Below the pieces are notes generated by a model, which did no database searches, was not told the DNA's origin, and saw nothing but the letters and a program-made list of their open reading frames with translations. The position numbers and the translations under genes are program-made. A stretch of DNA of 64,000 nt from an uncultured Eubacteriales bacterium (GTDB lineage: Bacteria > Bacillota > Clostridia > Christensenellales > Aristaeellaceae), in NCBI GenBank assembly GCA_902761755.1, contig CACWLP010000001.1:1-64000 (forward strand), in the 5' to 3' direction. Shown here piece by piece: positions 27,784 through 44,836 of this stretch (positions are counted from its first letter, which is position 1; every line of letters begins with the position of its first letter).

Positions 27784-27809
27784 ACGCTTCATCCTCCCGT
27801 TTTTCTTCT

Positions 27810-28135: not shown

Positions 28136-31100
28136 ATGCAGAAGAAGCGCTTTCGTGACATGGCAGGCCGGTTCTTCGGGAAAAAGTGGGTCCGGTGGCT
28201 GCTGGGCATCGCCGTGGTCGTCGTCGCGATCGTTCTTTTGGCGCGGCTTGGCGGAGACGCGGAGAATTTCTCCGCCAAGTATGAAGGCCAGGATCTGACT
28301 GCGGACGTGGAGGGCGTATCCCGGAGCGAGCTGACTTACGCCAAGTATCTCGCGCAGCCGCAGTATAAGGACGCGCAGGACGCCCATCCGGCGGAGCCCA
28401 TCGTGCTGCCGCTGGATCAGTTCGAGATCCTGCCCTCCGCCGGGGCCAAGGACAAGGACGAAAGCGAGATCGTCCGCATCGAAACCGAAGGCGGCGACAC
28501 CTTCCTGCGTACGGGCGACGGCTCCTTCCTGCAGTGGAAGGTGAGCGTGCCCGAATCCGGCTGGTATAACGTGCAGATCGACTACCGTGCCCTGAGCCCG
28601 GAAAACGGCGGACGCGGCGTGGACATTGAGCGCGCCCTGTATATCGACTACGGCCAGCCCTCCGTGGACGCGGACGGCCAGCCCGTCCTGGACGAAAACG
28701 GCCAGCCGGTGCTGAACCAGAAATCCCCCTTCAGCGGAGCGTCCGAGCTGACGTTCACGCTGCTGTGGCACGATCAGCCCTTTGAAAAGGAAGAGGACCG
28801 CTTCGACAACCAGGGCAACCAGCGCCGGGCCCGGCAGGAAGAGCTTTTCGACTGGCAGAAGGTCGCCTTCCGGGATCCCATGGGCTATGTGGCGGAGCCC
28901 TACCGCTTCTATTTTGAAGCGGGCAAAGAGCATACCGTCGCCCTGCGCGCCGTGAACGAGCCCATGGACATCCGCTCCATCGAGCTGACGGCGCCGCAGA
29001 AATTCAATACCTACGAGCAGTACGTGGCCCAGGTAAAGCAGGAATACCCGGAAAGCGAGCAGGCCGGCACCAGCGACCAGCTGTTGGCCGCCATCCAGGG
29101 CGAGGACGCCGTTCGGCGCTCCTCTCCCTCCCTTTATCCCCGCTACGACCGTTCTTCCTCCGCCACCGAGCCGTACGACGTGTACCACACGATCCTCAAC
29201 TATATCGGCGGCGATGCCTGGAACAACGCCGGCCAGTGGATCGAATGGCAGCTGAACGTGCCGGAAAGCGGCTGGTACGCCATCACCGTCAAGGCCCGCC
29301 AGAACCATCAGCGCGGCGCCATTTCCTGCCGTTCCCTGTACATCGACGGCCAAATCCCCTTCGGGGAGGTTTCCTCCATTTCCTTCAGCTATAACACCGC
29401 CTGGGAAATGCACACCCTCAGCGATCAGGAGGGAAACCCCTACCGCTTCTATCTGTCTGCCGGCGATCACACCATCCGCCTGGAGGCCACATTGGGCGAA
29501 ATGGGCACCATCCTGCAGAATATGGACGATTCCATCTACCGCCTGAACCAGATCTACCGCAAGATCCTGGTGCTCACCGGCGTCAATCCCGACCGTTTCC
29601 GCGATTATAACCTGGAACGCATCTACCCCGAAGTCATCCAGGGCATGGACCTGGAGAGCAAGCGCCTCTACAAGCTGGTGGACGACACCGTGGCCGTGAC
29701 CGGCCAGAAATCGGACCGCATCGCCGTGGCCCAGACCCTGGCCGTCCAGCTGGAAGGCTTCGTCAACCACACCGAGCGCATCACCCAGGCCTTCTCCAAT
29801 TTCAAGGACAACATCACCGCCCTGGGCACCTCCATGCAGAACATGTCCGAAACCAAATTGGACGTGGATCTGATCCTGGTGCACGGCGCCGATTACCAGG
29901 TGCCCAAGGTCAACGACGGGCTGGCCGCCGGCGCCGGAAACGAAGTCCGTTCCCTGGCCGCTTCCTATTCCGTGGATTATGACGCCCTGGGCAATAAATA
30001 CGAGGGCGGCGACGTGCTGGACGTGTGGATCACCACCGGCCGCGATCAGTCCACCATCTTAAAGACCCTGATCGACCAGGACTTCACCCCCAATTTCGGC
30101 GTGAAGGTCAACGTCAAGCTGGTGGTGGCGGATACGCTGCTCACCGCCGTGGTGGCGGGCAACGGCCCGGACGTGGTGCTGTCCGTGGGCTCCTGGTTCC
30201 CGGTGAACTACGCCCTGCGCCACGCCGTGGAGGATATGACCCAGTTCCAAGCCCTGGATTACGAATACAACGGGCATCAGGTGCACGTCAAGAGCTTTGA
30301 GGAGGCCACCGCGCCGGATATTTACGAGCGCAGCGCCCTGGCCCCGTTCCAGTACCGCGACGAGGTGGTGGATCCCACCCACGTGGGCATTTACGGCATC
30401 CCGGAAACGATGAACTTCCCCCTGGTGTTCTATCGCAAGGACGTGCTGGAAGAGCTGGGCATGGCCCCGGAGAGCTGGGATGACCTGAGCGACTGGCACG
30501 CGCTGGAAACCTGGCGCGGCCTGATCGAGCTGCTGCCCACCATCCAGGGCGAAAATATGACGGTGGGCGTGCCCTTCCCCAACATCAATTCCACGGATAC
30601 GTCCGTCCTGAATTCCATGATCTATCAGCAGGGCGGCTCCATCTACGACGAATACAATATCAAGACCATGATCGATACGGAAGAGGGCGTAGCGGCCTTT
30701 AAGCTCTACACCTCCCTGTACAACGATTACGGCCTGCCCACGATCTACGATTTCGTCAGCCGCTTCCGTACCGGCGAAATGCCCATCGGCGTCGCCGACT
30801 ACGGAACGTACAACAACCTCGCCGTTTCCGCCCCCGAAATCCGCGGCCTGTGGGATTTCACCTACTTCCCCGGCACCCTGCGCACCGCCGAGGACGGAAC
30901 GACCTACCTGGACAACACCGTGCATGCCGGCGGCACCTGCTCCATGATCATCAAGACCGACAATGATACGACCCGCCAGAACGCCTGGACGTTCGTCCAA
31001 TGGTGGACCGACGCCCAGACCCAGGTCAATTTCGGCCGGGAAATGGAATCCATCCTGGGCGCCTCCGCCCGCTATACCACGGCCAATAAGAAGGCCATGG

Positions 31101-31465
31101 TGCAGCTGGGCTGGAGCGACAAGCAGCTCAAGGTGCTGCAGGAGCAGATGGCCCACACCCGCGGCTTCCCGGAGATCGCCGGCGGCTACTCCACCACCCG
31201 CCACATGACCAACGCCATCCGCCGCGTCATCAACACCAAGGAAGACGCCCGTGAAACGCTTCTGACCTACTCCAAGACCATCAACGAGGAAATCAAGATC
31301 AAGCGTCAGGAATTCGGGCTGTCCACCAACGCGGAGGAGCTGCGGCAGATCCTGGCCGGCGCCGAGGCCGAATCCCCCGCGCCTCCCGCCGAGGAAACCG
31401 GCGGAGAGACGCCGGACGAAGCGCCGAACGATACACCGAACAAAACGCCCAATGAAAGCCAGTAA
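28136..31465 (+). CDS. Membrane-anchored extracellular solute-binding protein with large N-terminal extension
   Basis: About 1109 residues, over twice the usual solute-binding-protein size. A single hydrophobic segment (about residues 20-38, WLLGIAVVVVAIVLLARL) with basic residues before it acts as signal anchor; there is no lipobox. Residues about 75-470 contain two similar beta-rich modules, each with a WxxxVPESGWY signature (LQWKVSVPESGWYNVQ and IEWQLNVPESGWYAIT), which look like carbohydrate-binding domains. A helical linker (about 480-600) follows, then a family-1 sugar-binding protein domain (about 625-1075: DVWITTGRDQSTILKTLID, AVVAGNGPDVVLSVGSW, YGIPETMNFPLVFYRKDVLEELG). The tail is Pro/Glu-rich. 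First gene of the operon. The start is ATG 28136, 8 nt after GGGGAG. Confidence 0.85.
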   Translation: MQKKRFRDMAGRFFGKKWVRWLLGIAVVVVAIVLLARLGGDAENFSAKYEGQDLTADVEGVSRSELTYAKYLAQPQYKDAQDAHPAEPIVLPLDQFEILPSAGAKDKDESEIVRIETEGGDTFLRTGDGSFLQWKVSVPESGWYNVQIDYRALSPENGGRGVDIERALYIDYGQPSVDADGQPVLDENGQPVLNQKSPFSGASELTFTLLWHDQPFEKEEDRFDNQGNQRRARQEELFDWQKVAFRDPMGYVAEPYRFYFEAGKEHTVALRAVNEPMDIRSIELTAPQKFNTYEQYVAQVKQEYPESEQAGTSDQLLAAIQGEDAVRRSSPSLYPRYDRSSSATEPYDVYHTILNYIGGDAWNNAGQWIEWQLNVPESGWYAITVKARQNHQRGAISCRSLYIDGQIPFGEVSSISFSYNTAWEMHTLSDQEGNPYRFYLSAGDHTIRLEATLGEMGTILQNMDDSIYRLNQIYRKILVLTGVNPDRFRDYNLERIYPEVIQGMDLESKRLYKLVDDTVAVTGQKSDRIAVAQTLAVQLEGFVNHTERITQAFSNFKDNITALGTSMQNMSETKLDVDLILVHGADYQVPKVNDGLAAGAGNEVRSLAASYSVDYDALGNKYEGGDVLDVWITTGRDQSTILKTLIDQDFTPNFGVKVNVKLVVADTLLTAVVAGNGPDVVLSVGSWFPVNYALRHAVEDMTQFQALDYEYNGHQVHVKSFEEATAPDIYERSALAPFQYRDEVVDPTHVGIYGIPETMNFPLVFYRKDVLEELGMAPESWDDLSDWHALETWRGLIELLPTIQGENMTVGVPFPNINSTDTSVLNSMIYQQGGSIYDEYNIKTMIDTEEGVAAFKLYTSLYNDYGLPTIYDFVSRFRTGEMPIGVADYGTYNNLAVSAPEIRGLWDFTYFPGTLRTAEDGTTYLDNTVHAGGTCSMIIKTDNDTTRQNAWTFVQWWTDAQTQVNFGREMESILGASARYTTANKKAMVQLGWSDKQLKVLQEQMAHTRGFPEIAGGYSTTRHMTNAIRRVINTKEDARETLLTYSKTINEEIKIKRQEFGLSTNAEELRQILAGAEAESPAPPAEETGGETPDEAPNDTPNKTPNESQ

Positions 31466-31486
31466 GGGAGAAAGGAGGGAAACCGT

Positions 31487-32425
31487 ATGCAGTCTGTCAG
31501 AACAAGCTACTGGAGCATGAAAAAGGAAAAGTTCATGTACGGGCTCAGGAAAGCCGGCAAGATGAAGGTCTGCTATCTCTTCCTGCTGCCTTATGCCGTG
31601 CTGTTCTTTACCTTCCTCATCCTCCCGATCTGTACGTCCATTTACTACAGTTTCACCTACTACAACATTCTGGAAGCGCCCCGGTTCATCGGCTTCCAGA
31701 ACTACATCAACCTGGTGCTGCAGGATGAGGTGTTCCTCACCGCCATCAAGAACACCTTCGTGATCGCCGTGGTCACGGGCCCCATCGGGTACATCCTCTC
31801 CTTCCTGTTCGCCTGGTTCATCAACGAGCTGCCCCGCTGGCTGCGCACCGTCGCCGTGGTGGTGTTCTACGCCCCGTCCATTGCCGGCGGCGCGTACACC
31901 GTGTTCGCGATCCTCTTCCAGGGCGACAGCTACGGCTGGCTGAACTCCATCCTGCTGCAGTTCGGCTTCATCGACGCCCCCATCCTGTTCCTGCTGGATC
32001 CGCGGTACATCATGACCGTCATCATCATCGTTACCCTGTGGATGAGCATGGGCACCGGCTTCCTTTCCTTCGTGGCCGGCCTCAAGGGCGTGGATCCCAG
32101 CCTGTACGAAGCCGGCTATGTGGACGGCATCCGCAACCGCTGGCAGGAATTGTACTTCATCACCCTGCCGCAGATGAAGCCCATGCTGCTCTTCGGCGCG
32201 GTGATGAGCATCACCTCCGCATTCAACGTATCCGACGTGCCCCGGGCCCTGGCCGGCTATCCCAGCACGGACTACGCGGCCCGCACCATCGTGACCCATC
32301 TGTTCGACTACGGCTTCTCCCGGTTTGAGATGGGCTACGCGTCGGCCATCGCCGTGGTGCTGTTCCTGGCGATGATCCTGTGCAACAAAGCCATTCAGGC
32401 GATGCTGAGGAAGGTGGGCACATGA
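31487..32425 (+). CDS. Sugar ABC transporter permease (MalF/UgpA-like), pair 1
   Basis: 312 residues with six membrane helices and the permease EAA loop (LYEAGYVDGIRNRWQELYFITLPQMKPML), which docks onto the ATPase. N-terminal basic stretch, then FLLPYAVLFFTFLILPICTSIYYSFTYYN, typical of carbohydrate-family-1 permeases. It forms a heterodimer with the following permease. No ATPase gene is in the operon, so a shared MsmX-type ATPase is expected. It starts 21 nt after the solute-binding protein, with AAGGAGG. The stop overlaps the next ATG (ATGA). Confidence 0.93.
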   Translation: MQSVRTSYWSMKKEKFMYGLRKAGKMKVCYLFLLPYAVLFFTFLILPICTSIYYSFTYYNILEAPRFIGFQNYINLVLQDEVFLTAIKNTFVIAVVTGPIGYILSFLFAWFINELPRWLRTVAVVVFYAPSIAGGAYTVFAILFQGDSYGWLNSILLQFGFIDAPILFLLDPRYIMTVIIIVTLWMSMGTGFLSFVAGLKGVDPSLYEAGYVDGIRNRWQELYFITLPQMKPMLLFGAVMSITSAFNVSDVPRALAGYPSTDYAARTIVTHLFDYGFSRFEMGYASAIAVVLFLAMILCNKAIQAMLRKVGT

Positions 32426-34221
32426 GCAAGAAGCAGATCGTAAAATTCGTACAGCCCAAAACCAGCAGCCGCACGGAGCAGCTGCGCTTCCTGGCGCAGC
32501 TGCGGGGCGAGATCGAGGAAGAAAAGCCGAAGCTCAATGTGAAGCGCTTCCTGCTGATCTCCGCCATCGTGATTGCGATCCTGGCGGGCGGGCTGCTTTT
32601 CACCTCCGCAAAAATCAACCAGATCAACCGGCATAACGAGGACGTCATCGCCGCCCAGCGCCTGGCGCAGCAGAATGCGGAGGCAGGCCTCGCCGCGGCG
32701 CCCGACGAAAACGCGCCCACGGAAGCCGCCACGATTACGGAGGCTGCCACCGTTACGGAAGCCGCCGCTGTTACACAGGCCGCTACCGTTACCGAAACCG
32801 CTACGGTTACGGATGCCGCCGCTGTTGCGGAAACCGCTACCGTTACGGAAGCCGCTGCTGTTACAGAGGCTGCTACCATGACGGAAGCCGCCTCGATCAC
32901 AGAAGGCGCGGCGCTGACAGCCACAGAACGCGCGGCGGCCGGAAGCACCGCCGCGGCGGAGAAAACCCCGGAAAGCAAACGGGCGCGGACGTTTGAAATC
33001 ATCCGCATCGTGTTCCTGATGCTGCTCATCGCCTGCGCCATCGCCTTCTATGCCGTGATGAAGCGCCGCCCCGCGGAAGAACGCACCAAAAAACAGGTTT
33101 CCACGATGTGCGTCATCCTGGCGGTGCTGCTGGCGGGCGTGGTCGTCTTCGGCATCCTGGCGGACAGCAGCGAGCCCAAAACCGCCGCCGTTGAAACAGC
33201 GGCCGCAGACACCGGCGAAGAAACCGCCGAAGAGGGCGAAGGCGCCGCCGCGCGCACCGTGGACACGAGCAATCAGATCGACACCAGCATCGCCACCTGG
33301 AACCTGGTGCACTTCCTGCTCATCGTGCTGCTGGTCTGCTACGGGATATTCATGCTGGTCAAGCTGGCGCATCCCAAGCGCCGCAAGCCAAACCGCAGCT
33401 TCTGGGGCGATTTCGGCATCTACTTCATGATGGCGGTCTTCGCCGTGGCGATGGCTTTCCCGCTGGTGTTCAACATCGCCGCGTCCCTCAAGCCCCTGGA
33501 CGAGCTGTTCCGCTTCCCGCCCAAGGTGTTCGCCCAGCATCCCACGCTGGATAACTTCTCGGATTTGTTCGTCACCATGGGCCAGAGCTACGTGCCCTTC
33601 TCCCGTTACCTGACCAACACGGTGCTGATCACCTTCGTGGGCACCTTCGGCCACGTGATCATCGCTTCGATGGCCGCCTTCGTCCTGGCGAAGTATGATT
33701 TCCCGGGCGGGCGCACCTTCTTCTCCATCGTGGTGACGGCCCTGATGTTCTCCGGATACGTGACGGGCATCCCGAACTACGTGATCATGAGCCGTCTGGG
33801 CTTCATCGACACCTACTGGGCCATCATCCTGCCGGCCTTCGCGGCGCCCATCGGCCTGTTCCTGATGAAGCAGTTCATGGAGAGCCTGCCCACGGCGCTG
33901 ATCGAAGCCGCCCATCTGGACGGCGCCGGCGAGTTCCGCATCTTCTGGAGCATCGTGATGCCCAACGTCAAGCCCGCCTGGCTGACGATCATCATTTTCT
34001 CCGTGCAGAGCCTGTGGAACAATAGCGCGTCCATCGTTATCTACACCGAAAAGAACAAGACCCTGGTCTACGCCCTGCAGCAGATCCAGGGAGGCAACGT
34101 CGCCCGTACCGGTCAGGCCGCCGCGGTATCGGTCATCGTCATGATCGTTCCCGTGCTCATTTTCATCCTGTCTCAGAGCCGGATCCTGGAAACCATGGCA
34201 AGCTCCGGCCTGAAAGACTGA
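32422..34221 (+). CDS. Sugar ABC transporter permease (MalG-like) with about 320-residue N-terminal extension
   Basis: 599 residues, about double the family length. The permease core is residues about 330-599, with six helices and the EAA loop LIEAAHLDGAGEFRIFWSIVMPNVKPAW. Before it lie a first membrane helix (about 43-61), a Thr/Glu/Ala hexapeptide repeat block (100-168, TVTEAA type, about 11 copies), two helices (about 192-212 and 229-247), an acidic Ala/Glu linker (about 250-285) and another helix (about 294-314). By alternating topology the repeat block should face the exterior, but this is inference. The reading frame is continuous and the ATG overlaps the previous stop, so this is not a sequencing artefact of fused frames. 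Partner of the upstream permease. Confidence 0.88.
   Translation: MSKKQIVKFVQPKTSSRTEQLRFLAQLRGEIEEEKPKLNVKRFLLISAIVIAILAGGLLFTSAKINQINRHNEDVIAAQRLAQQNAEAGLAAAPDENAPTEAATITEAATVTEAAAVTQAATVTETATVTDAAAVAETATVTEAAAVTEAATMTEAASITEGAALTATERAAAGSTAAAEKTPESKRARTFEIIRIVFLMLLIACAIAFYAVMKRRPAEERTKKQVSTMCVILAVLLAGVVVFGILADSSEPKTAAVETAAADTGEETAEEGEGAAARTVDTSNQIDTSIATWNLVHFLLIVLLVCYGIFMLVKLAHPKRRKPNRSFWGDFGIYFMMAVFAVAMAFPLVFNIAASLKPLDELFRFPPKVFAQHPTLDNFSDLFVTMGQSYVPFSRYLTNTVLITFVGTFGHVIIASMAAFVLAKYDFPGGRTFFSIVVTALMFSGYVTGIPNYVIMSRLGFIDTYWAIILPAFAAPIGLFLMKQFMESLPTALIEAAHLDGAGEFRIFWSIVMPNVKPAWLTIIIFSVQSLWNNSASIVIYTEKNKTLVYALQQIQGGNVARTGQAAAVSVIVMIVPVLIFILSQSRILETMASSGLKD
32719..32925 (+). repeat. Hexapeptide-coding tandem repeat (about 11 copies) in the permease gene
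   Basis: 18-bp units of consensus GCYRCYGTTACGGAAGCC encode A-(A/T)-V-T-E-A variants (TEAATI, TEAATV, TEAAAV, TQAATV, TETATV, TDAAAV, AETATV...). The array looks like slippage-generated expansion with later point changes. Related motif copies occur in ThiT. Confidence 0.85.
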
Positions 34222-34258
34222 CCCGTTTGCGAATCATGAAGACAGGAGGGAAACGAAC

Positions 34259-35920
34259 GTGAAAAAAATGAGAAGGCTGCTGGCAATCCTCGCCGTGCTG
34301 ACCATCCTCGCGCCCATGACCGTGGCGTACGCGGCGGAAGACGGCTATTCCAGCACCTATACCTATAACTACGATTACTGGAGCGAGCTGCGGGAAAGCC
34401 CGGACGCTTACCGCGTCACCGACGTGATTTACAGCTCCTCCCTGGCGCTGGAAAAGGCCATGCGCTCGCCCAAATCCCTGTTCGTCCGGGATCAGGATCT
34501 GTACATCGTGGATACCGGCAACAACCGCATCCTGCAGCTCACCCGGATCGGCACCCGGTTTGACCTGGTGCGCGTGATCGACCAGGTGACCGTCGGCGCG
34601 GACAAGCTGGAGGAATTCATGGCGGCCAGCGACCTGATGAAGAACGAGGACGGCACCTACCTGACCGACGACGACGGCAGCTATTACCTCAAGCCGCCCA
34701 TCGGCAGCGCGGCGGAAAAAGGCCCCATGGTGCTGACCAGCGAAAACGTAACCTACTTCAACAACCCCAACGACGTGTCGGTGGACCCGGACGGAAAAAT
34801 CTACGTGGCCGACCGGGATAACAACCGCGTCATCGTGATGAACAAGGATCTGGAATTCGTTCAGCTGTTCACCAAGCCCAGCGATTCCACCTTCGATCAG
34901 AACCAGGCCTTCCTGCCCAACAAGCTGGTGGTGGACACCTCCGGGCGCGTGTTCGTCCTGGCGAACAATATCAACAAGGGCCTGGTCAAGTTTGAAGCGG
35001 ACGGCACCTTCACCGGCTTCATCGGCGCCAATCCCGTTACCTACAACCTCTGGGATTACATCTGGAAAACCTACTTTATGACCAAGGAGCAGCGCTCCCA
35101 GCAGGCGGCCTTCGTGCCCACCGAATATCAGAACATTTACATCGACAAGGAAGGCTTCATCTACGCGACGAACACCTCCTTCAGCGAATACGACCTGCTG
35201 TGGGACAACGCCAAGCCCATCCGCCGCATCAACGCGGTGGGCCAGGATATCCTGGTCAAAAACGACCGGTATCCCCCCATCGGCGATCTGGAATGGGTGG
35301 AACAGTCCTCCGACCACGGGCCCTCGAAGTTCTACGACATCACCGTGCTGGACAACGACATGTACATGGCCATCGACCAGACCCGCGGCCGCGTGTTCGG
35401 CTACGATCCCCAGGGCATCATGCTCTGGTCCTTCGGCACCACCGGCGTCAACGCCGAAGGCGTCTTTACCCGCGCCAATTCCATCGAGCATATGGGCACG
35501 GACCTGCTGGTACTGGACGAGCTGGACTGCAGCGTGACGGTATTCGCCCCCACGGAATACGGCAATCTGATCTACCAGGCGTCCGAGCAGTACCTGCGGG
35601 GGGATTACGACGGCTCCGCCGAAACGTGGGAAAAGGTGCTGCAGCTCAACGCGAACTACAACCTGGCGTTCATCGGCATCGGCCGCTCCAAGATGCGCGC
35701 CGAGGAATACGAGGAGGCCATGGCCCTGTTCAAGATGGCCCACGACCGGGACAATTACGGCCGGGCGTTCCGCTACTACCGGAAGATCTGGGTGGAAAAG
35801 AACATCCTGTGGGTCGTGCTGATCATCGCGGTGCTGGTGGTATTCTCCTTCGTCCGGAAGACGATCCGAAAAGTAAAATGGGAGGTGGCAGCGTATGAGC
35901 ATAACAAAGTCGTTAAATGA
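34259..35920 (+). CDS. Exported NHL-repeat protein with C-terminal membrane anchor
   Basis: 553 residues. GTG start 8 nt after GGAGGG. The N-terminal signal peptide ends at MTVAYAA. The mature part has NHL/beta-propeller repeats: SPKSLFVRDQDLYIVDTGNNRILQL, NNPNDVSVDPDGKIYVADRDNNRVIVMN, LPNKLVVDTSGRVFVLANN and later degenerate blades (to about residue 430). A TPR-like pair follows (YLRGDYDGSAETWEKVLQLNANYNLAFIGIGRSKM in pieces), then one transmembrane helix (ILWVVLIIAVLVVFSFV, about 522-538) and a short basic cytoplasmic tail. It is probably a surface scaffold or binding protein partnering the ABC components. It overlaps the next gene by 26 nt. Confidence 0.8.
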   Translation: MKKMRRLLAILAVLTILAPMTVAYAAEDGYSSTYTYNYDYWSELRESPDAYRVTDVIYSSSLALEKAMRSPKSLFVRDQDLYIVDTGNNRILQLTRIGTRFDLVRVIDQVTVGADKLEEFMAASDLMKNEDGTYLTDDDGSYYLKPPIGSAAEKGPMVLTSENVTYFNNPNDVSVDPDGKIYVADRDNNRVIVMNKDLEFVQLFTKPSDSTFDQNQAFLPNKLVVDTSGRVFVLANNINKGLVKFEADGTFTGFIGANPVTYNLWDYIWKTYFMTKEQRSQQAAFVPTEYQNIYIDKEGFIYATNTSFSEYDLLWDNAKPIRRINAVGQDILVKNDRYPPIGDLEWVEQSSDHGPSKFYDITVLDNDMYMAIDQTRGRVFGYDPQGIMLWSFGTTGVNAEGVFTRANSIEHMGTDLLVLDELDCSVTVFAPTEYGNLIYQASEQYLRGDYDGSAETWEKVLQLNANYNLAFIGIGRSKMRAEEYEEAMALFKMAHDRDNYGRAFRYYRKIWVEKNILWVVLIIAVLVVFSFVRKTIRKVKWEVAAYEHNKVVK

Positions 35921-36578
35921 CGCCGTTGCCCGCAGGGAACATCCGCGTCTGCGCCGCTATAAAGAGACGCTTTTATACGCCAAGTACGTGATCTTCCATC
36001 CCTTTGACGGGTTCTGGGATCTGGTGCATGAAAAGCGGGGCTCCCTGGCGGCGGCGCACACCTTCGTGCTGCTGTTCCTGCTGACCTACGTGCTCAAGCT
36101 CATGTACACCAGCTTCCAGTTCATCACCACGGCGATCCAGTACATCAATATCTACGAGCGCTGGGCGTCGCTGCTGCTGCCCTTCCTGGTCCTGTGCCTG
36201 GCAAACTGGAGCCTTTCCACTTTGTTCGACGGCAAGGGCCGCTTCAAGGACATCTACATGGCCATGAGCTACGCGCTGGTGCCCTACATCATCATTCAGC
36301 TGCCGCTGATCCTGATCAGCAACGTGCTGGCGTTCGACGAGGGCGCCTTCTACACGGTGCTGATGAGCATTTCGGAACTCTGGTGCCTCTTCCTGGCCTT
36401 CGTGGGCCTGATGGAGGTGCATGATTTCGGCCCGGGAAAAACGCTCGTTTCCATCGTGGCCACGGTGTTCGGCGCCATGGTGATTCTGTTCCTGCTGCTG
36501 GTATTCTTCAGCCTTCTCAGCGATGCATTCGGCTATTTCACTTCAATGTATCGTGAGATCGTGTTCCGGCTCAGTTGA
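35895..36578 (+). CDS. Yip1-domain membrane protein
   Basis: 227 residues with five membrane helices (about 52-72, 90-112, 123-148, 152-172 and 190-212) and the Yip1 pattern: N-terminal FHPFDGFWDLVHEKRGS, the first helix, then LANWSLSTLFDGKGRFKDIYMAMSYALVP. Yip1-like proteins recur beside NHL and DUF5696 genes in Firmicute sugar operons, as far as I recall; their role is unknown. The ATG follows GGGAGGTGG. It overlaps the preceding gene. Confidence 0.82.
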   Translation: MSITKSLNDAVARREHPRLRRYKETLLYAKYVIFHPFDGFWDLVHEKRGSLAAAHTFVLLFLLTYVLKLMYTSFQFITTAIQYINIYERWASLLLPFLVLCLANWSLSTLFDGKGRFKDIYMAMSYALVPYIIIQLPLILISNVLAFDEGAFYTVLMSISELWCLFLAFVGLMEVHDFGPGKTLVSIVATVFGAMVILFLLLVFFSLLSDAFGYFTSMYREIVFRLS

Positions 36579-36592
36579 GGAGGTGGCGTAAA

Positions 36593-39500
36593 GTGAAAAA
36601 GGAAAACGGCGCTCCCAAAAAGCGCGTGAAAAAATCCGTCATCATCAAACGCGTCATCGCCGCCGTGCTGACGCTGGCGATCCTGGGCGGGCTGTATTAC
36701 CTGGGCACGAAGCTGTGGCCCGCGGAAAGCAAGAATGAACAGGAAGAAAGCAGGATCCGCCGGAATTCGTACGATACCACCACCAAGGACAAGAAAATGT
36801 CCAACGAGTATCTCGAATTCACCATGTACCCCACCACCAGCCACTTTACCCTGAAGGAAAAGAAAACGGGCCGCATCTGGATGTCCAACCCGGACGCCGA
36901 TAAAGGCGGCGTCGCCAGCGACCCGGGCAAGGTGGCCATCGGCTCCTCCCAGCTCAACGATATGCGTTCCACGCTGATCGTGTCCTACTCCGCCTCATCG
37001 GCAGACAAGGATCTGAACAACTGGGAATACTCCATCGACAAGCAGGCCTATGTGATCGAGGAAGTCAAGAACGACGAGGACGTGACCACCGAGATCCGCG
37101 TCCTCTACACCATCGGTCAGATCCAGGGCATCGCCACCATCCCCCAGGTGCTGACCAACGAGCGCTACGACGAGATCCTCACCCGTATCAAGAATTCTCC
37201 GGACGGTAAAACCGCACGTCTGGACAAAGCCTTCACCCCGAACTACGAGAATGCCCAGACGATCCGCGAAATGGCGCTGTCCACCCGTCTGGAGCTGCGT
37301 CAGCTGGCGGCCCACGTGCTGCGCCTGTCCGTCACCATGGACACCCTGGAGCAGGAGGAAAACCTTTGGATCCAGAAGCTCATCGACGATTTGGAGACCG
37401 CCTCCATCATCCCCTATCAGCGGGAGGCCGTCCAGGCCGTTATCGACGAGCACGCAGAGGCGCTGAAGGACCTGGAATCCTTCGCCGAGTGGGCGCTGTC
37501 GGAGGACGAGGAAGAGCGCAAGCAGGCGTCCGAGCTGCTGAACGCCCGAATCAAGGAGCTGGACGACAACCCCGGCGACATGCCCGAAGAGGAAGCGGAA
37601 GCCGCCATCGAATGGATGACCGACCTCAAGGGAATGATCGAGCGTCCCAACGTGGAGCCAGTGGATCTGGAGGCCCTGGCCGCCACCATCACCTCGAATC
37701 CCAATCACTTCTTCGGCGAAGAGGAAGAGGCTGCAGCCGAAAAAATGGAGCCGATCCTGGCCCTGGTCCAATCCGAAGAATACGAGGATAAAAAGACCGC
37801 TGCGGAGCAGATCAGGGAGTTCGTTTCCGAGGCCGAGCTTTCCAAGGAAAAGAACAAGTGGATCGCCGAATTGGCCGATGCGCTGGATGCCTCCGGCGGC
37901 GAGGGGTATGACAACACCGCCGTCAAAGGCATGATCGAGGAAGCCGACGCGGAGCCGGCGCGGAAGGAACTGCTGGACCGCGCGTTCCGCAGAGCGAAAT
38001 TCATGCGCGCCGAAGCGAAGGAAAACATCCTCAAGGCCCTCAAGGGCGACGAGAAGGTGCAGGGCATCGACTACACCGACGAGGAATATCTCCGGGACGC
38101 CCAGTGGGCGCTGTCCGGGGATTCGGACTCTTCCATCCGCTTCGACATCACGGTGGTCTACCGGCTGGACGGCCCCGACCTCATTGTGGAAGTCCCCTAC
38201 GACGAGATCAAATATAATGAAGACGCCCCCATCACTTACCTGAATATCCTGCCCATGTTCGGGGCGGTAGGCGGCACCAACGGGGAATACGAGGACGGAT
38301 TCCTCTTCGTTCCCGAAGGCGGCGGCGCGCTGATCCGCTACAACAACGGAAAGCTCCAGCAGAACAGCTACATCGCAAACCTGTACGGCTGGGATTACGC
38401 CTCCAAGCGTCCCGAAGTGCTGAACGAAACGAAGATCACCTTCCCCGTCTTCGGCCTGACCAGCAAAGGCGGCTCCTTCATCTGCATCATCGAGGAAGGC
38501 GCTTCCTACGCCAGCATCAAGGCGGACATCAACGGTAAGCCCGGCACCAACACCGCCTTCCACCCCAACAGCTTCAATACCGTCAGCGCCAAATACCGCG
38601 TGCTGCATTCCGACCAGTACAACGTATCCGACAAAACGCCCAGCATGGTGCTGATGTATGAAAAGTCCATGCCGAAGAATACCGTCAGGCAGCGCTACCG
38701 CTTCCTCAACAGCGACAGCTACGTGGACATGGCCAGCGCTTACGGCGATTATCTGCGGGACAACCATCCGGAGCTGCAGGCCAGCGACGCTTCCGAGGAA
38801 ATGCCGGTTTCCGTGGAGCTGGTGGGCGCCATCGACAAGCGCGTCGTGACCGCCGGGCTGCCGGTGCAGCGCGTGCTGGCCACCACCACCTTCAGCGAAA
38901 TGAAAACCGTCATTGACGATCTGGTTTCCCAGGGCGTCAAGGAGATCAGCGTCCGGGCTTCCGGCTGGTGCAACGGCGGCATCCGGCAGCACGTGCTCAC
39001 CAGCGTCAACGTGGAAGGCGTGCTGGGCGGCGCCCAGGGCATGAAGGACCTGATCGCCTACGCGAAGGAAAAGGGCGTGCGCCTCTACTTCGACGGCATC
39101 ACTGCCTTCGCCTACGATACCAAGCTCTTCCAGGGCTTCACGCCCCGGGCCAACGCGGCGCGGTTCACCACCCGCGAGATCGTGGAGATCACGCCGTATT
39201 CCAAGGTCTATTACACGGAAGACAACGATCAGGCCGTTTATTACCTCACCCGCCCCGACTACGCCCAGCAGAACGCCTCCAACCTGATCAAGGCGCTCCA
39301 GGACAAGGGCGCCTACGGCGTGGCGTTCCGGGATATCGGCCATCTGCTCAGCGGCAACTACGATCCCCGGGATACCACCACCCGCGAAGAAGTCAAGGCG
39401 ATGAACATCGATACGATGCAGCAGGCGCGGGACAGCGGCGAAAGCATCATGATCCGCGACGGCTTTGATTTCGCTCTCCCCTATGCCGATATCGTCACCG

Positions 39501-41383
39501 ATATGGATCTGAGCGGCGTCAGCTATTCCCTGCTGGACGCCACGGTGCCCTTCTACCAGATCGCCATTCACGGCTCCCTGGATTACACGGGCCCCTCCCT
39601 CAACCTCTCCAGCGACTGGCACACCGATTTCCTCCGCTGCGTGGAATACGGCGCCGGGCTGAACTTCACCTTCCTCTACGAAGACGCCAAGATCCTGCAG
39701 GATACGATGCACACCGCATACTACGGGACCAGCTACGGCGCCTGGCGTCAGGAAGCCATCGACACCATCACCCGGTATCAGCGGGAAATGGCCGGGCTCA
39801 ACCGTTCGCGGATCACGGGCCACATGGCGCTGCCGCTGAACGTCACCAAAACCACGTACGCCGACGGCACGGACGTTTACGTCAACTACGGCAGCGACGA
39901 TTACACCCTGGACGACGGAAACGTGGTTCCCGCCCGCGACTATCTGTTGGTCCGCGAGCAGGAGGGCGTTGCCGACGCGAAGATCCAGGCAGTCTTTGAG
40001 CCCAACGGCGCCCGCAGTCTCGTCAACTTCACCGCCGTCTCCCTGACCGCGGGCGATACCGTCCTCCGGCCCTGCACCACCGTGCGCCTCCAGGACGGCG
40101 AGGTCTTCGACGTGATTTTCGCCGACGCGCTGGAAAGCGATCCGGCGGAAGGGCAGCACACCCGCGTGTACGTGAACGCTTCCGACGAGGCGGTTTCCGT
40201 CAGCGGCGGCCTGGAAATCCCGGCCCGGAGCTACCGCTGGGCCACGGACGATACCCAGGCCGAAGCGATCTTCCTGCCGGACGGCAGCCGCATGTATGTC
40301 AACTACGGCGATGCCGCCATCAACTACGGCTATACCTTCAAGGAAGACGGCAACGTCGACAAGGCGGCCGTCCTCAATGCCGGCACCTATGTGCGCATCC
40401 GGGACGAGCAGAACGTGGACGCCATGATCCTGGCGGACGGCACGGTGCTGCTGGTCAACTGCACGGATGAAGCCCTGACGGTGAACGGCGAAACCGTGCC
40501 CGCCAAGGGCTGGATCAAATCCGAAAATCCCGATCCGGTGCAGGTGATCTTCCGCGCGGACGGCAGCCGCATGTACCTGAACCGCACGGAAGCCGATCTG
40601 AAACCCGGCACCCGCACGGTGGGCGCGCTGAACTGGCTGCCCGTCAGCGGCGACCAGGCCCTGGATCTGCTGCTGACCGGCGAAGGGAACCGCGTCTGGG
40701 TGAACGCTTCCGACGCGGCGATCACCGCAGGAAATACGGAGATCCCCGCCCACAGCAGCGTGCTGGAGCCCACGGAAGCCGGCGTCACGGTGGTCTTCCT
40801 GCCGGACGGCAGCCGCATGTACGCCAACTTCACCGACGCCCTGGTGAAAACCGACAACACCAACAGCCGCAACACCGGCGCCGGCAACTACCAGCTTGTG
40901 ACCGCGGAGATCGATCTGGACGTGCTGGTGCTGCCGGACGGCGATCTGTGGGTCAACAGCACCGACAAGGAAATCCGGGTCGGAGACATCGCCATCCCCG
41001 CCAAGGGCACGGCCAAAACGGAGAATGCCGACGGGACGGCCGAGGTCATCCTCCTTGCGGACGGCACGCGGCGCTACGTCAACCACGGCACCACGCCGCT
41101 GGCCATCAACGGCGTCAACGTGCAGGGCATGTGCTGGGCGCCGGACAGCGCCGCCATCGGCGATGCCCCGCTGCCCGATGGCCTGGAAAAAGTGATCTTC
41201 TACAACCTCAGCGACGCGGACGTGCCGTTCGGCGCCGTCACGGTCCCCGCCGGGCAAATCCTGATCCCGGATCCGGTCACGGAGCCGGAGCTGGCGGCGG
41301 AAGAGCCGGCAGCCGAAACACCGGCAGCGGAGACACCGGCCGATCAAGCGTCAGGAACAGAGGAAGGAGGGGATAAAAAATGA
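36593..41383 (+). CDS. Giant membrane-anchored DUF5696 protein with C-terminal repeat modules
   Basis: 1596 residues. GTG start after GAGGAGG. One N-terminal anchor (about residues 20-40, VIAAVLTLAILGGLYYLGTKL). The next region (EYLEFTMYPTTSHFTLKEKKTGRIWMSNPD) matches the start of DUF5696 proteins. A helical, highly charged insert (about 205-500) follows, then a barrel-like catalytic-looking domain (about 530-1090; LYFDGITAFAYDTK, FRDIGHLLSGNYDP, IMIRDGFDFALPYADIVTDMDLSG), and from about 1090 to 1560 tandem modules of 50-60 residues with the repeating motif LPDGSRMYVNY / ADGT..VN.T, ending in a Glu/Ala/Pro tail. The middle domain resembles glycoside-hydrolase barrels (inference). Cell-surface exposed. 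Its stop overlaps the next ATG. Confidence 0.8.
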   Translation: MKKENGAPKKRVKKSVIIKRVIAAVLTLAILGGLYYLGTKLWPAESKNEQEESRIRRNSYDTTTKDKKMSNEYLEFTMYPTTSHFTLKEKKTGRIWMSNPDADKGGVASDPGKVAIGSSQLNDMRSTLIVSYSASSADKDLNNWEYSIDKQAYVIEEVKNDEDVTTEIRVLYTIGQIQGIATIPQVLTNERYDEILTRIKNSPDGKTARLDKAFTPNYENAQTIREMALSTRLELRQLAAHVLRLSVTMDTLEQEENLWIQKLIDDLETASIIPYQREAVQAVIDEHAEALKDLESFAEWALSEDEEERKQASELLNARIKELDDNPGDMPEEEAEAAIEWMTDLKGMIERPNVEPVDLEALAATITSNPNHFFGEEEEAAAEKMEPILALVQSEEYEDKKTAAEQIREFVSEAELSKEKNKWIAELADALDASGGEGYDNTAVKGMIEEADAEPARKELLDRAFRRAKFMRAEAKENILKALKGDEKVQGIDYTDEEYLRDAQWALSGDSDSSIRFDITVVYRLDGPDLIVEVPYDEIKYNEDAPITYLNILPMFGAVGGTNGEYEDGFLFVPEGGGALIRYNNGKLQQNSYIANLYGWDYASKRPEVLNETKITFPVFGLTSKGGSFICIIEEGASYASIKADINGKPGTNTAFHPNSFNTVSAKYRVLHSDQYNVSDKTPSMVLMYEKSMPKNTVRQRYRFLNSDSYVDMASAYGDYLRDNHPELQASDASEEMPVSVELVGAIDKRVVTAGLPVQRVLATTTFSEMKTVIDDLVSQGVKEISVRASGWCNGGIRQHVLTSVNVEGVLGGAQGMKDLIAYAKEKGVRLYFDGITAFAYDTKLFQGFTPRANAARFTTREIVEITPYSKVYYTEDNDQAVYYLTRPDYAQQNASNLIKALQDKGAYGVAFRDIGHLLSGNYDPRDTTTREEVKAMNIDTMQQARDSGESIMIRDGFDFALPYADIVTDMDLSGVSYSLLDATVPFYQIAIHGSLDYTGPSLNLSSDWHTDFLRCVEYGAGLNFTFLYEDAKILQDTMHTAYYGTSYGAWRQEAIDTITRYQREMAGLNRSRITGHMALPLNVTKTTYADGTDVYVNYGSDDYTLDDGNVVPARDYLLVREQEGVADAKIQAVFEPNGARSLVNFTAVSLTAGDTVLRPCTTVRLQDGEVFDVIFADALESDPAEGQHTRVYVNASDEAVSVSGGLEIPARSYRWATDDTQAEAIFLPDGSRMYVNYGDAAINYGYTFKEDGNVDKAAVLNAGTYVRIRDEQNVDAMILADGTVLLVNCTDEALTVNGETVPAKGWIKSENPDPVQVIFRADGSRMYLNRTEADLKPGTRTVGALNWLPVSGDQALDLLLTGEGNRVWVNASDAAITAGNTEIPAHSSVLEPTEAGVTVVFLPDGSRMYANFTDALVKTDNTNSRNTGAGNYQLVTAEIDLDVLVLPDGDLWVNSTDKEIRVGDIAIPAKGTAKTENADGTAEVILLADGTRRYVNHGTTPLAINGVNVQGMCWAPDSAAIGDAPLPDGLEKVIFYNLSDADVPFGAVTVPAGQILIPDPVTEPELAAEEPAAETPAAETPADQASGTEEGGDKK

Positions 41384-42354
41384 GCAGAAAGAAAAGAGAC
41401 AGAAACGAACGCTGGAGCCTGAGCGAATCCGTATCGGCCCTGATTCCCATCAATGAGAATTACGACACCATGCGTTCCCGCAACGCCCGCACCGGCGTGC
41501 TCTTCGTCCTTCCGTTCATCCTGGGCTTCCTGATCTTCATGCTCAAGCCCATGATCCAGTCCGTCTGGATGAGCCTCAACAAGGTGGTGCTGGTGCCCGG
41601 CCAGGGCTATCAGCTCACCTGGAACAACTTTGAAAACTACAAATACGCCATGGGCGTGGACCCGTACTTCAACCAGTATCTGGTGGAGGAGGTCGGGCGC
41701 ATGGCCGTAAACGCCATCGCCACCCTGGTGCTGGCCTTCGTGGTGGCGGTCATTCTGAACCAGAAGTTCAAGGGCCGCACCGTGGCGCGCGCCATCTTCT
41801 TCCTGCCGGTGATCCTGGCCTCCGGCGTGCTGCCCGGCGTGGAAAGCCAGCTGACCTACAACATGCTGCAGGGCGTATCCGATGAGATCGCCGCCCAGTC
41901 GGGCATCAACATTTCCGGCGCTTTGCAGGATCTTCTGATGGTTTCCGGCGTGGGCAGCGGCGTGTTCGACGTGCTGTTCCAGATGATCGACGCCATTTAC
42001 GACATCGTCATGGCCAGCGGCATCCAGATCATCGTGTTCCTCTCCGGCCTGTCCGCCATCTCTCCCTCCCTGTACGAGGCGGCGGACGTGGAAGGGTGCA
42101 CGGCCTGGGAAGCCTTCTGGAAAATCACCTTCCCCATGGTCAGCCCTCTGCTGCTGGTGAACGCCATCTACACCATCATCGACTTCTTCATGAAAAACAA
42201 CAACAAAGTCATGGAGTGGATCAACACCCAGTTTACCCGCACCCGGTACGGCGAAAGCACGGCGGAAAGCTGGATCTACTTCGGCGTGGCGCTGGCCTTC
42301 ATCGGCATCGCGTCCTTCATTATCAACAGGGTGGTGAAGCAGTATGACACTTAA
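41380..42354 (+). CDS. Sugar ABC transporter permease (MalF-like), pair 2
   Basis: 324 residues with six membrane helices and the EAA loop LYEAADVEGCTAWEAFWKITFPMVSPLLL. An unusually large periplasmic segment lies between helices 3 and 4 (about residues 145-205, QGVSDEIAAQSGINISGALQDL). Second permease pair of the operon, coupled to both neighbours (4-nt overlap upstream, 11-nt overlap downstream). It presumably pairs with the next gene and takes substrate from the last solute-binding protein. Confidence 0.93.
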   Translation: MSRKKRDRNERWSLSESVSALIPINENYDTMRSRNARTGVLFVLPFILGFLIFMLKPMIQSVWMSLNKVVLVPGQGYQLTWNNFENYKYAMGVDPYFNQYLVEEVGRMAVNAIATLVLAFVVAVILNQKFKGRTVARAIFFLPVILASGVLPGVESQLTYNMLQGVSDEIAAQSGINISGALQDLLMVSGVGSGVFDVLFQMIDAIYDIVMASGIQIIVFLSGLSAISPSLYEAADVEGCTAWEAFWKITFPMVSPLLLVNAIYTIIDFFMKNNNKVMEWINTQFTRTRYGESTAESWIYFGVALAFIGIASFIINRVVKQYDT

Positions 42355-43351
42355 GGCAGAAGCGCTCCCGCGCAGCGACAAACGCTCCGCCAACAAAAAG
42401 AGCGGCGGTTATCTGTTCAAATCCGGCGTCAAGCGCTGGACGGTCTCCATCGTCCGCGGGCTGCTGGTGTTCGGACTGTGCTTCATGATCATCCAGCCCA
42501 TGCTGACCCGCTTCGGCACCAGCCTGATGCAGGAAAAGGACCTGTACGATTCCACCATCGTGCTGCTGCCCCGGAACGTGACGCTGGAGAATTACTCCAT
42601 CGTGTTCGATCTGACCAATTTCCCCCGGTCGCTGATCAACACGGCATGGACGTCGCTGATCGTCAGCATCCTGCAGGTGATCGCCTGCACCCTGGTGGGC
42701 TACGGCTTCGCCCGGTATGAGTTCCCGCTCAAGCGGTTCTGGTTCGCCTGCGTGGTGCTCACCATCGTGGTCCCGCCCCAGACCATCGCCACCCCGCTGT
42801 ACATGTACTTCCGCTACTTCGATATCTTCGGCATCTTCAAAACCTTCAACGGAGAGCCGCTGAACCTGCTGAGCAACCTGACCCCCTACCTGCTCATGAG
42901 CGCCACCTGCATGGGCCTCAAGGACGGCTTGTACATCTACATGCTGCGGCAGTACTTCAAGGGCATTCCCAAATCCCTGGAGGAAGCGGCGTACGTGGAC
43001 GGCTGCTCCACCTTGCGCACCTTCACCACCATCATGCTGCCGGACGCCCTGCCCACGGTGCTCAGCTGCTTCCTGTTCTCCTTCGTATGGCAGTGGACGG
43101 ACCTGTTCTACACCCGCAATTTCATCAGCAAAACCATGGTGGTCTACTCCACCGAGCTCTCCTCCATCCTCACCCGTATGAGCCGCTACTTCTCCCAGGA
43201 CGCCGAGAAGGCCATCATCGTGCCTCCGGCCCGTCAGCAGCAGCTGGTGTCCATCGGCGTGCTGATCTGCTGCATCCCGCTGGTGATTCTTTACATTTTC
43301 ACACAGAGAACTTTTGTGGAAAGTATTGCAATGTCCGGCTCAAAGGAGTAA
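42344..43351 (+). CDS. Sugar ABC transporter permease (MalG-like), pair 2
   Basis: 335 residues with six membrane helices; EAA loop LEEAAYVDGCSTLRTFTTIMLPDALPTVL; ends IAMSGSKE, a usual ending for these permeases. Here the family length is normal, in contrast to the enlarged permease of pair 1. ATPase missing, as for the first pair. The stop is followed by a 107-nt gap with two hairpins and then the solute-binding protein gene. Confidence 0.93.
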   Translation: MTLKAEALPRSDKRSANKKSGGYLFKSGVKRWTVSIVRGLLVFGLCFMIIQPMLTRFGTSLMQEKDLYDSTIVLLPRNVTLENYSIVFDLTNFPRSLINTAWTSLIVSILQVIACTLVGYGFARYEFPLKRFWFACVVLTIVVPPQTIATPLYMYFRYFDIFGIFKTFNGEPLNLLSNLTPYLLMSATCMGLKDGLYIYMLRQYFKGIPKSLEEAAYVDGCSTLRTFTTIMLPDALPTVLSCFLFSFVWQWTDLFYTRNFISKTMVVYSTELSSILTRMSRYFSQDAEKAIIVPPARQQQLVSIGVLICCIPLVILYIFTQRTFVESIAMSGSKE

Positions 43352-43358
43352 AATAGGG

Positions 43359-43432
43359 GTGGAGATATCCGGTATCCACCGGATGAAAAACCGAATCTAT
43401 GCATGCACCCGGTCCTCTGGACGGTGGATGCG
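43359..43432 (+). promoter_or_regulatory. Two intercistronic hairpins before the last solute-binding protein gene
   Basis: Hairpin 1: GGTGGA (43359-43364) with TCCACC (43376-43381). Hairpin 2: GCATGCACC (43402-43410) with GGTGGATGC (43424-43432), enclosing GTCC-TCT-GGAC. Neither is followed by a T run. They probably stabilise or define the 5' end of a processed, abundant solute-binding-protein mRNA, as seen in other binding-protein operons (inference). Confidence 0.55.
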
Positions 43433-43458
43433 TGGAAAATAAAAAGGAGGAACCCAAT

Positions 43459-44814
43459 ATGAAGAAACTGGTTTCCCTGTTCCTGGTGCTGGCGATGCTG
43501 CTGGTCAGCGTTGCTGCGCTGGCGGAAGCTCCGGAAGGCTATCCGGAAGTCCGCGAAGGCGTTGACTTCGGCGGTGCTGACATTTACATCCTCGACTACT
43601 GGTCTGGCGATGTGGGCAGCGACGCCCGCGCCGAGGATCCCACCGAAGAGCAGGCTGCGCTGTATGCGTACCGCGATTGGCTGAATGAGACCTACAACTG
43701 CCATATCGTGCAGAAGCAGGGCGGCGACTGGGGCTCCCAGATCACCGAATTCACCAACTTCGTGGCCGCTCCCGATGGCAGCTATCGCCTCTACATCCTG
43801 GAGCCCGGCTCTGTGGCCAACGCCATCAAGGCCGGCGCCCGCGCCTGGGACGATCTGGTTGACCTGAGCGCCGAGAAGTGGAACAAGCAGGACCTGGGCT
43901 TCACCACCAAGCAGGGCAAGGCCTACGGCGTCTATGCTGGCGAAGCTGAACCCCGTCAGTGCCTGTACTTCAACAAGAAGGTTCTGGAAGATGCCGGCAT
44001 CGACTGGAACGAGATCTACGACATGCAGGAAGCTGGCACCTGGACCTGGGATGCCCTGGTGGAACTGCTGGCGAAGCTGACCCGTGACACCGATGGCGAC
44101 GGTATCAACGATATCTACGGCATCATCGGCGACAACACCGACTTCCTCATCATCTCCGTGTTCTCCAACGGCGGCGCTTTCTTCGCTCTGGATGACGAAG
44201 GCAAGCTGCAGCCCGTCATGAACAGCGACGTGGCCATGGAAGCTCTGACCTGGGCCAAGGAAACCTGGCTGAACTACGGTGCTCCCCAGCCCGCAGACGC
44301 CAACTGGGATTGGTACAAGAATGCTTGGAAGCAGGGCTACTGCGGCTTCTATATGTACCAGACCTACGGCGGATTCAACGACAATTCCGAAATGGCTGAC
44401 ATGGCCGATCAGTGGGGCTGCGTTGCGTTCCCCATCGGCCCCAAGGGCAACACGTATGTGCACGTTGTGTCCGATAACATCACCCTGATCCCTGACGTGT
44501 ATGACGACCAGACCGCTGCGAACCTGGCCTTCATCTACGACATGTGGACCAACCCCACCCCCGGCTATGACGATGAGAATGCCTGGGTTGGCAACAAGCT
44601 GAACTACACCGATGACCGCGCTGTGTACGAGACCTATGCCATGCTGCGTGAAGCGGATCATTCCGCCTTCAACATGACCCTGGCCATGGGCACCAACAAC
44701 GACATCATCGGCAACGGCTTCCTGTGGAACATCTACGGCAACGATCCCGCTGCGCTGATCGAAGCCCAGATGCCCGTTTGGGAAGGCCTGTGCAACGAGT
44801 TCAACGGCGACTGA
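43459..44814 (+). CDS. ABC transporter sugar-binding protein
   Basis: 451 residues. Signal peptide MKKLVSLFLVLAMLLVSVAALA with an A-x-A-type site and no lipobox cysteine, so the mature protein is either free or held by partners. Family-1 extracellular solute-binding layout: VDFGGADIYILDYWSGDVGSD, LYFNKKVLEDAGIDWNEI, GTWTWDALVELLAKLTRDTDGDGINDIYG and EMADMADQWGCVAFPIGPKG. AAGGAGG lies 8 nt before the ATG at 43459. Codon use leans to GCT, GGT and GTT compared with the GCC/GGC-dominated neighbours, a sign of high expression. Last gene of the operon, followed by a strong terminator. Confidence 0.93.
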   Translation: MKKLVSLFLVLAMLLVSVAALAEAPEGYPEVREGVDFGGADIYILDYWSGDVGSDARAEDPTEEQAALYAYRDWLNETYNCHIVQKQGGDWGSQITEFTNFVAAPDGSYRLYILEPGSVANAIKAGARAWDDLVDLSAEKWNKQDLGFTTKQGKAYGVYAGEAEPRQCLYFNKKVLEDAGIDWNEIYDMQEAGTWTWDALVELLAKLTRDTDGDGINDIYGIIGDNTDFLIISVFSNGGAFFALDDEGKLQPVMNSDVAMEALTWAKETWLNYGAPQPADANWDWYKNAWKQGYCGFYMYQTYGGFNDNSEMADMADQWGCVAFPIGPKGNTYVHVVSDNITLIPDVYDDQTAANLAFIYDMWTNPTPGYDDENAWVGNKLNYTDDRAVYETYAMLREADHSAFNMTLAMGTNNDIIGNGFLWNIYGNDPAALIEAQMPVWEGLCNEFNGD

Positions 44815-44836
44815 TTCAATCCCTGAACAAAGCAAG

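Follow-up and report, generated by a model that had tools for sequence, protein, structure and literature searches.

We describe here a run of nine genes at positions 28136-44814 of a 64 kb stretch of DNA (the window), which opens contig 1 (CACWLP010000001.1) of an uncultured gut bacterium of the Eubacteriales whose genome amounts to 2.2 Mb in 46 contigs and is 73% complete. This gene set is real, conserved and, as far as the literature searched shows, undescribed. With a probability of about 0.48, we propose that the nine genes represent one copy of a conserved oligosaccharide importer built from two modules and using a shared ATPase, whose B half would rely on a glycosidase-derived receptor held on a propeller-TPR-Yip1 scaffold. 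It is filed here under the CUT1-type importers, neither under GH129 nor as an established new system, with a mechanism that we infer. The nine open reading frames (ORFs), which encode among others two solute-binding proteins (SBPs) and four permeases of ATP-binding cassette (ABC) type, all lie on the + strand, and each matches the Pfam family assigned to it above the curated cut-off:

28136..31465, + strand: anchored SBP of the A module, 1109 amino acids (aa), with a transmembrane (TM) helix at the N-terminus, two CBM35-like beta-sandwiches, a helical stalk and the SBP domain (SBP_bac_8, PF13416, 5.6e-19)
31487..32425, + strand: permease A1 of the A module, 312 aa, EAA loop EAGYVDG (PF00528, 1.3e-11)
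32422..34221, + strand: permease A2 of the A module, 599 aa, EAA loop EAAHLDG (PF00528, at 429-603 of a 613-aa reading)
34259..35920, + strand: NHL beta-propeller and TPR protein, 553 aa (PF01436, 2.2e-13; TPR sub-threshold)
35895..36578, + strand: Yip1-domain membrane protein, 227 aa (PF04893, 1.5e-15, 57.9 bits against a cut-off of 28.6)
36593..41383, + strand: DUF5696 protein, 1596 aa, with a TM anchor, a beta-sandwich with helical insert, a GH129-like barrel and C-terminal beta repeats (PF18952, 2e-182, 608 bits against a cut-off of 25.6)
41380..42354, + strand: permease B1 of the B module, 324 aa, EAA loop EAADVEG (PF00528, 4.3e-7)
42344..43351, + strand: permease B2 of the B module, 335 aa, EAA loop EAAYVDG (PF00528, 9.3e-14)
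43459..44814, + strand: second SBP, B module, 451 aa from the likely ATG, the ORF opening at 43399 (PF01547, 2.4e-10)

The gene order, the families and the short gaps or overlaps had been described in an original prediction made earlier on this DNA, and the check by ORFs and Pfam bears them out.

Conservation of the gene set

Among the 60 genomes scanned for DUF5696 (the window's own and 59 relatives), 40 gave a match at E 0.001 and 36 a match above the cut-off, and the gene order is repeated in the ~20 kb read around selected DUF5696 matches, in relatives as well as across the phylum. For closer counting, 43 loci with a DUF5696 ORF of >600 aa were retained (L038-L060 and L090-L109), a set that excludes L037, where the DUF5696 ORF is cut by the contig, and L031-L036, which are GH129-like matches without the cassette. 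NHL and both permease B genes accompany DUF5696 in all 43 loci and so does Yip1, as an ORF of its own in 31 loci and as a fusion with NHL in 12. The anchored SBP is present in 37/43; it is missing in L093, L094 and L099, where the sequence read extends 3.9 to 5.8 kb upstream of NHL, and the other three loci without it (L049, L098, L109) are limited by contig ends. The gene order is altered in three loci (L055, L059 and L105).

A scan of named genomes yielded 476 stretches encoding a relative, the best 80 of which come from records of Clostridia, Clostridiales or Christensenellaceae, with titles that in many cases point to ruminant or other herbivore gut samples. All nine genes stand in order in 56 of these best 80 loci; the remaining 24 comprise 18 that hit the locus end, four in which the last SBP alone is missing (L114, L117, L140 and L156, with at least 5 kb read behind), one with the last SBP on the opposite strand and one with split ORFs (L166). 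Of the derived sets, A3 used 60 of the 80 best named-genome loci and A6 used 54 of 65 SBP_A ORFs. Two annotated plasmids also carry the cassette, pNP243 of Butyrivibrio fibrisolvens D1 and one of Paenibacillus cellulosilyticus.

Regarding co-occurrence, one draw of 299 genomes was examined (298 besides the window's own). Full-length DUF5696 was found in 26/298, belonging to 11 families, with weak partial matches only in eight more. In all 26 genomes, the NHL-Yip1 protein is present as well, and so is the anchored SBP by its N-terminal part, which in G158 is cut by the contig. Exceptions are NHL without DUF5696 in one genome (G289) and the anchored SBP without DUF5696 in two (G159 and G202), on contigs of 8.5, 3.8 and 4.3 kb, where they run into the contig end; four further genomes gave weak, shorter matches to the anchored-SBP domain only. 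Since the genome searches scored the best few candidates per genome, copy numbers are lower bounds. Altogether, 14 families retain the gene set, a conservation that chance would not give. The joint occurrence of NHL, Yip1 and DUF5696 genes with dual permease pairs, which the original prediction had proposed to look for, is thus that of a conserved unit.

Two separable modules

Two parts can be told apart in the set: an A module, made of the anchored SBP and its permease pair, and a B module, which comprises NHL, Yip1, DUF5696, a permease pair and often an SBP. The A module stands alone in genome G118 (L202:8880-13882, with the anchored SBP and the permease A pair), and the same genome contains four units made of NHL-Yip1, DUF5696, permease B and SBP without the A module (L093, L094, L205 and L206), as well as three full cassettes (L203, L204 and L207). 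In G097, B-only units were found at L099, L215 and L214, the last of these only 2.7 kb from the contig end; at L099, another, lower-scoring permease pair lies further away. As each module occurs alone, the NHL, Yip1 and DUF5696 genes are to be grouped with the second permease pair. The idea first put forward for this locus, a single assembly feeding both permease pairs, is hence not supported as stated, and a DUF5696 protein serving both pairs is disfavored on the same ground.

Beyond the proposal for the whole locus, it is possible, though only as a tentative suggestion, that the B module represents a distinct importer class, widespread in Bacillota and so far unrecognized, in which a permease pair would be fed by a tethered glycosidase-derived receptor on an NHL-TPR-Yip1 scaffold and a classical SBP would be optional.

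Two observations on copy number stand apart from this. The lone A module of G118, beside four A-less units, raises the possibility that several B modules share a single A module. At L092:10498-16638, a row of five SBP_B-like ORF matches follows the cassette, as if SBPs had multiplied behind one transporter.

Binding proteins, permeases and ATPase

The AlphaFold model of the anchored SBP (predicted local distance difference test, pLDDT, 83.8) contains a TM helix at the N-terminus, a pair of beta-sandwich domains, a stalk of helices and an SBP domain that resembles oligosaccharide-binding SBP folds. The profile of the N-terminal part hits cycloisomaltooligosaccharide glucanotransferase (6e-8) in a stretch that we take to be CBM35; with Pfam CBM_35, four of 14 aligned N-termini gave a match at up to 0.01 (best 7.5e-7), that of the window protein staying below the cut-off. 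The anchoring claimed for this protein is therefore seen as an N-terminal membrane helix, to which two CBM-like beta-sandwich domains can be added. Regarding the last SBP, no lipobox was found in the window protein, and relatives are mixed in this respect.

An EAA coupling loop is present in all four window permeases and in 447/458 of the relatives' permeases overall (108/108, 109/110, 112/121 and 118/119 for the individual sets). Of note, permease A2 of the window has a long N-terminal extension (window 32422-33400) with TEAATVTEA-type Ala/Thr/Glu repeats and three extra hydrophobic segments by hydropathy; half of 113 permease A2 ORFs measure between 329 and 433 aa.

A Pfam scan found no ATPase gene among the nine ORFs, as the original prediction had it, and a motif scan of 130 relative loci (L031-L036, without cassette, among them) detected no ATPase of MalK size, while flagging two larger ABC-type ORFs. 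The window's genome encodes five ATPases with a MalK OB domain, one of which (378 aa) passes the NCBIfam UgpC cut-off and has, by profile search, no permease within the 12 kb read around it. In Paenibacillus cellulosilyticus, ugpC lies directly in front of the cassette. Multitask ATPases are described for CUT1-type importers in two papers (PMC7658222, PMC5730181). The EAA loops and the orphan UgpC-type ATPase support the earlier suggestion of a shared MsmX-like ATPase, and such an orphan UgpC/MsmX-type protein would most likely drive both permease pairs.

NHL, Yip1 and DUF5696 proteins

The NHL protein has two hydrophobic segments, at 7-25 (signal) and 514-532 (C-terminal TM), and the profile of its relatives matches propellers as well as TPRs.

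For DUF5696, the model of residues 60-1200 (pLDDT 85.4) contains a beta-sandwich, a TIM barrel and a C-terminal beta domain, that is, the three-part architecture of GH129. Its best matches in the PDB by Foldseek are the GH129-type structure 8rzk (1.4e-23) and NagBb 5wzq (1.8e-19), then GH101 and GH36. A profile built on 23 DUF5696 proteins recovers the same GH129-type chains by sequence in the PDB (4e-11 and 4.6e-9), so that the relation to GH129 is one of homology, beyond the fold alone. The window protein used by itself in phmmer gave no match to PDB sequences, and it has no match to the Pfam GH129 model, the only hit besides DUF5696 being a sub-threshold EcoEI_R_C (E up to 1). A search of 199 genomes, G000 included, with PF11308 (GH129) was likewise without match, its controls being silent too, and is thus uninformative on absence. 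The GH129-like barrel gives DUF5696 a structural identity.

The 1596 aa of the window protein, which the original prediction called giant, stand as stated, while giant size as a shared trait does not: most relatives' DUF5696 ORFs measure ~720-980 aa, and the enlargement, also found in G009, G013 and L111-L113, is a local elaboration that consists, in the window protein, of the helical insert and the C-terminal beta repeats. Importance of the large size to the system is therefore not supported. Even larger ORFs were seen, of 2540 aa at L113:10013-17632 and of 1906 aa in L208, the latter reaching the edge of the stretch read. In the genomes of relatives, L033, L034 and L036 encode proteins of 613-660 aa that keep NagBb-type motifs and are likely GH129 enzymes, with an ordinary permease pair near those of L034 and L036.

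Neighboring genes and possible substrate

Neighbors were tallied for 84 ORFs around phylum-wide cassettes and for 75/91 ORFs around those of closer relatives, with the 25 commonest Pfam families listed, and compared with a control of 100/103 ORFs from 14 of the same genomes. Phylum-wide, these families include GH26 (four), alginate lyase and CBM35 (three each), as well as GH42, apiosidase, GH3, GH43 and WbsX (two each); the 75 ORFs near closer relatives include GH43 (four) and GH10 (two). Eight CAZy-type Pfam families with at least two members occur among the 84 neighbors against none among the 100 control ORFs, for 25 families listed each, the control listing one alpha-amylase. B-only units have GH106, apiosidase, GH31 and WbsX among their neighbors, and the cassette on Butyrivibrio fibrisolvens D1 pNP243 is preceded by GH43 and, further upstream, by a histidine kinase and a response regulator. 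Neighboring enzymes hence favor glycans as ligands, though the families vary.

The flanking enzymes of the window itself, which had been tied to import, are:

26251..27792, - strand: GH10 xylanase with CBM4_9, outside the operon (Pfam, 2.4e-78)
44911..46152, - strand: GH27-type alpha-galactosidase, outside the operon (Melibiase_2, 1.2e-25)
46643..49039, - strand: GH94 phosphorylase, outside the operon (Pfam, 3.9e-146)

As neighbors differ between cassettes, the use of these three as substrate markers is not supported, and xylan, glucan or galactomannan would be a guess.

Behind the Paenibacillus cassette, L201:19778-31226 encodes four LLM flavin oxidoreductases, further reductases and extra SBPs, which hints at a non-sugar or modified ligand there.

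Proposed mechanism and alternatives

We propose that, in the A module, the membrane-anchored SBP with its two CBM-like domains would hand its ligand, presumably a glycan, to permease pair A. In the B module, permease pair B would work with a scaffold made of the extracellular NHL propeller, TPR, TM segment and Yip1 domain, while the surface-anchored, GH129-derived barrel of DUF5696, acting as a receptor rather than as an enzyme, would bind glycan near the B permease and pass it on, often together with a separate SBP. Both permease pairs would be powered by an ATPase encoded elsewhere, for which the orphan UgpC/MsmX-type protein is the most likely partner.

The main challenge to this scheme is that, at least in the clade of the window, DUF5696 could work as a cell-surface exo-alpha-glycosidase and represent a new family related to GH129, trimming side groups before import through the B permeases. 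Its fold and profile do match active GH129-type enzymes. In residue numbers counted from TTG 36575, the window protein has D920, D962 and D965; the alignment places NagBb D435 on D920 and NagBb E478, presumably the acid/base residue, beside D962. The carrageenan paper PMC5698469 equates NagBb Asp435 with the conserved Asp486 of DagB (ZGAL_3152, Zobellia), reports that DagB mutants at Asp202, Asp486, Glu517 and Glu531 are inactive, and has its authors propose removal of DagB from GH129 into a new family; from Asp486 to the essential Glu531 there are 45 residues, equal to the D920-D965 spacing. Among 129 DUF5696-type ORFs of >500 aa and 30 bits (L035, at 17 bits, being excluded), D920 together with an acid (Asp/Glu) at 961, 962 or 965 is kept in 80/80 close, 15/24 relative and 5/20 phylum proteins and in 5/5 GH129-like proteins. 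However, when the acid is required at the E478-equivalent 961/962, the counts fall to 53/80, 9/24 and 4/20, respectively, and the equivalents of NagBb D322 and D330 are Asp in only 5/129 and 7/129. Across the phylum, D920 alone is kept in 9/20 proteins, W798 and E1024 in 20/20, and the acid pair is missing in 15/20 although the gene set is kept. Classical GH129-type catalysis is therefore probably not the shared function, and a binding or structural role is more likely, as far as these alignments can tell. An active enzyme in the window's clade and in some others is possible; as an explanation of the locus, the enzyme reading is less likely than the receptor scheme. Several observations weigh against the receptor scheme all the same. 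The window protein keeps its three acids, and D840, R919 and D920 are found in 80/80 close relatives; the catalytic residues were mapped through a remote alignment and not by superposing coordinates; and the 20 phylum proteins include several that share a genome or genus. As for the ligand, LacI is hardly enriched beside cassettes (5/84 against 3/100 in the control), the control spans 14 genomes without three sources of neighbors (G097, G137 and G156), and the Paenibacillus cassette adjoins flavin oxidoreductases, not glycosidases, so that ligands other than sugars may be involved in some cases.

That NHL-Yip1 and DUF5696 form a sensor, gating or regulating the transporters in response to surface glycans from outside the transport path, seems improbable. 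The propeller-TPR-TM-Yip1 architecture is receptor-like, and the kinase and regulator upstream of the Butyrivibrio cassette would fit, but a Pfam scan found no signalling domain in the NHL, Yip1 or DUF5696 proteins of the window, kinases are missing from the 25 commonest neighbor families, and DUF5696 accompanies the permease B pair in 43/43 loci. This constant association, which extends to NHL and Yip1, also speaks against two ordinary, independent sugar importers that would merely share a promoter, with the three extra proteins acting elsewhere at the envelope, for example in membrane or wall organization. The separate occurrence of the two modules would suit such an arrangement, as would the description of Yip1-domain proteins elsewhere as Golgi and trafficking proteins; co-occurrence in 26/26 genomes and retention of the gene set in 14 families make it the least probable of the explanations weighed here. 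For a Yip1-domain protein, the cassette suggests a role in bacteria.

Relation to known systems

With the CUT1-type importers that use an MsmX/UgpC ATPase (Bacillus subtilis type), the cassette shares SBPs and EAA-loop permease pairs, an operon without ATPase and an orphan UgpC-type ATPase in the genome; it differs from them by two permease pairs per operon, by an SBP that is anchored and bears CBM-like domains, and by the constant NHL-Yip1-DUF5696 set. With GH129 and GH129-like enzymes (NagBb of Bifidobacterium bifidum, DagB of Zobellia), DUF5696 has in common the three-part architecture, the profile match and the D920-D435 alignment, whereas the absence of a Pfam GH129 match, the loss of the acid pair in most phylum proteins, the membrane anchor and the constant link to a permease pair set it apart. 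Gram-positive polysaccharide utilization loci likewise have a transporter adjoining glycoside hydrolases and sometimes regulators, but in the cassette the core is constant and the neighboring enzymes vary; to our knowledge, accessory proteins of the NHL-Yip1-DUF5696 type are not known from such loci. The SusCD systems of Bacteroidetes, where a surface glycan receptor stands beside a dedicated transporter, offer a functional analogy only: the nine proteins have no SusC/SusD Pfam match, and ABC permeases replace the TonB-dependent channel. We know of no outer-membrane SusCD machinery in monoderm gut bacteria, and little is known of how these bacteria retain large glycans on the cell surface and deliver them to ABC importers. 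If the proposal is true, a recurrent cassette in which a fused propeller-Yip1 membrane protein goes together with a GH129-like barrel put to new use would answer this question in a defined and testable way; the plasmid-borne copy of Butyrivibrio fibrisolvens D1 provides a named strain suited to testing. No published description of the gene set was found in a literature search whose coverage left out most subscription papers, in keeping with the earlier view that the joint role of NHL, Yip1 and DUF5696 proteins is undescribed.

Gene calls and ends of the operon

The spacing between the nine genes is, in bases, +21, -4, +37, -26, +14, -4, -11 and +47, and Shine-Dalgarno-like sequences precede most starts. 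For DUF5696, GTG 36593 is the most likely start (1596 aa), TTG 36575 being an upstream alternative. For the last SBP, ATG 43459, which follows AGGAGG, is likelier than 43399, where no Shine-Dalgarno-like sequence is visible, and the last gap then becomes 107 bases. Two signals frame the run:

28007..28035, + strand: putative promoter-like site, TTGACA-17-TATATT (consensus scan, 11/12)
44834..44861, + strand: terminator-like hairpin of 12 pairs, 8 GC, with a T tail

Promoter-like sites are not enriched in the region (five found against 5.5 in shuffles), and the front site is thus supported by its position and score, not by number. Of the predicted single promoter and single terminator, the hairpin at the end and the 11/12 site at the front were recovered, while the front site as sole promoter is unproven, a second, weaker site (9/12) lying at 43326-43354 ahead of the last SBP.

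Finally, elsewhere in the window, a BspA-type leucine-rich repeat protein (PF13306, 6e-82) is encoded at 16019-17380, adjoining gyrA.

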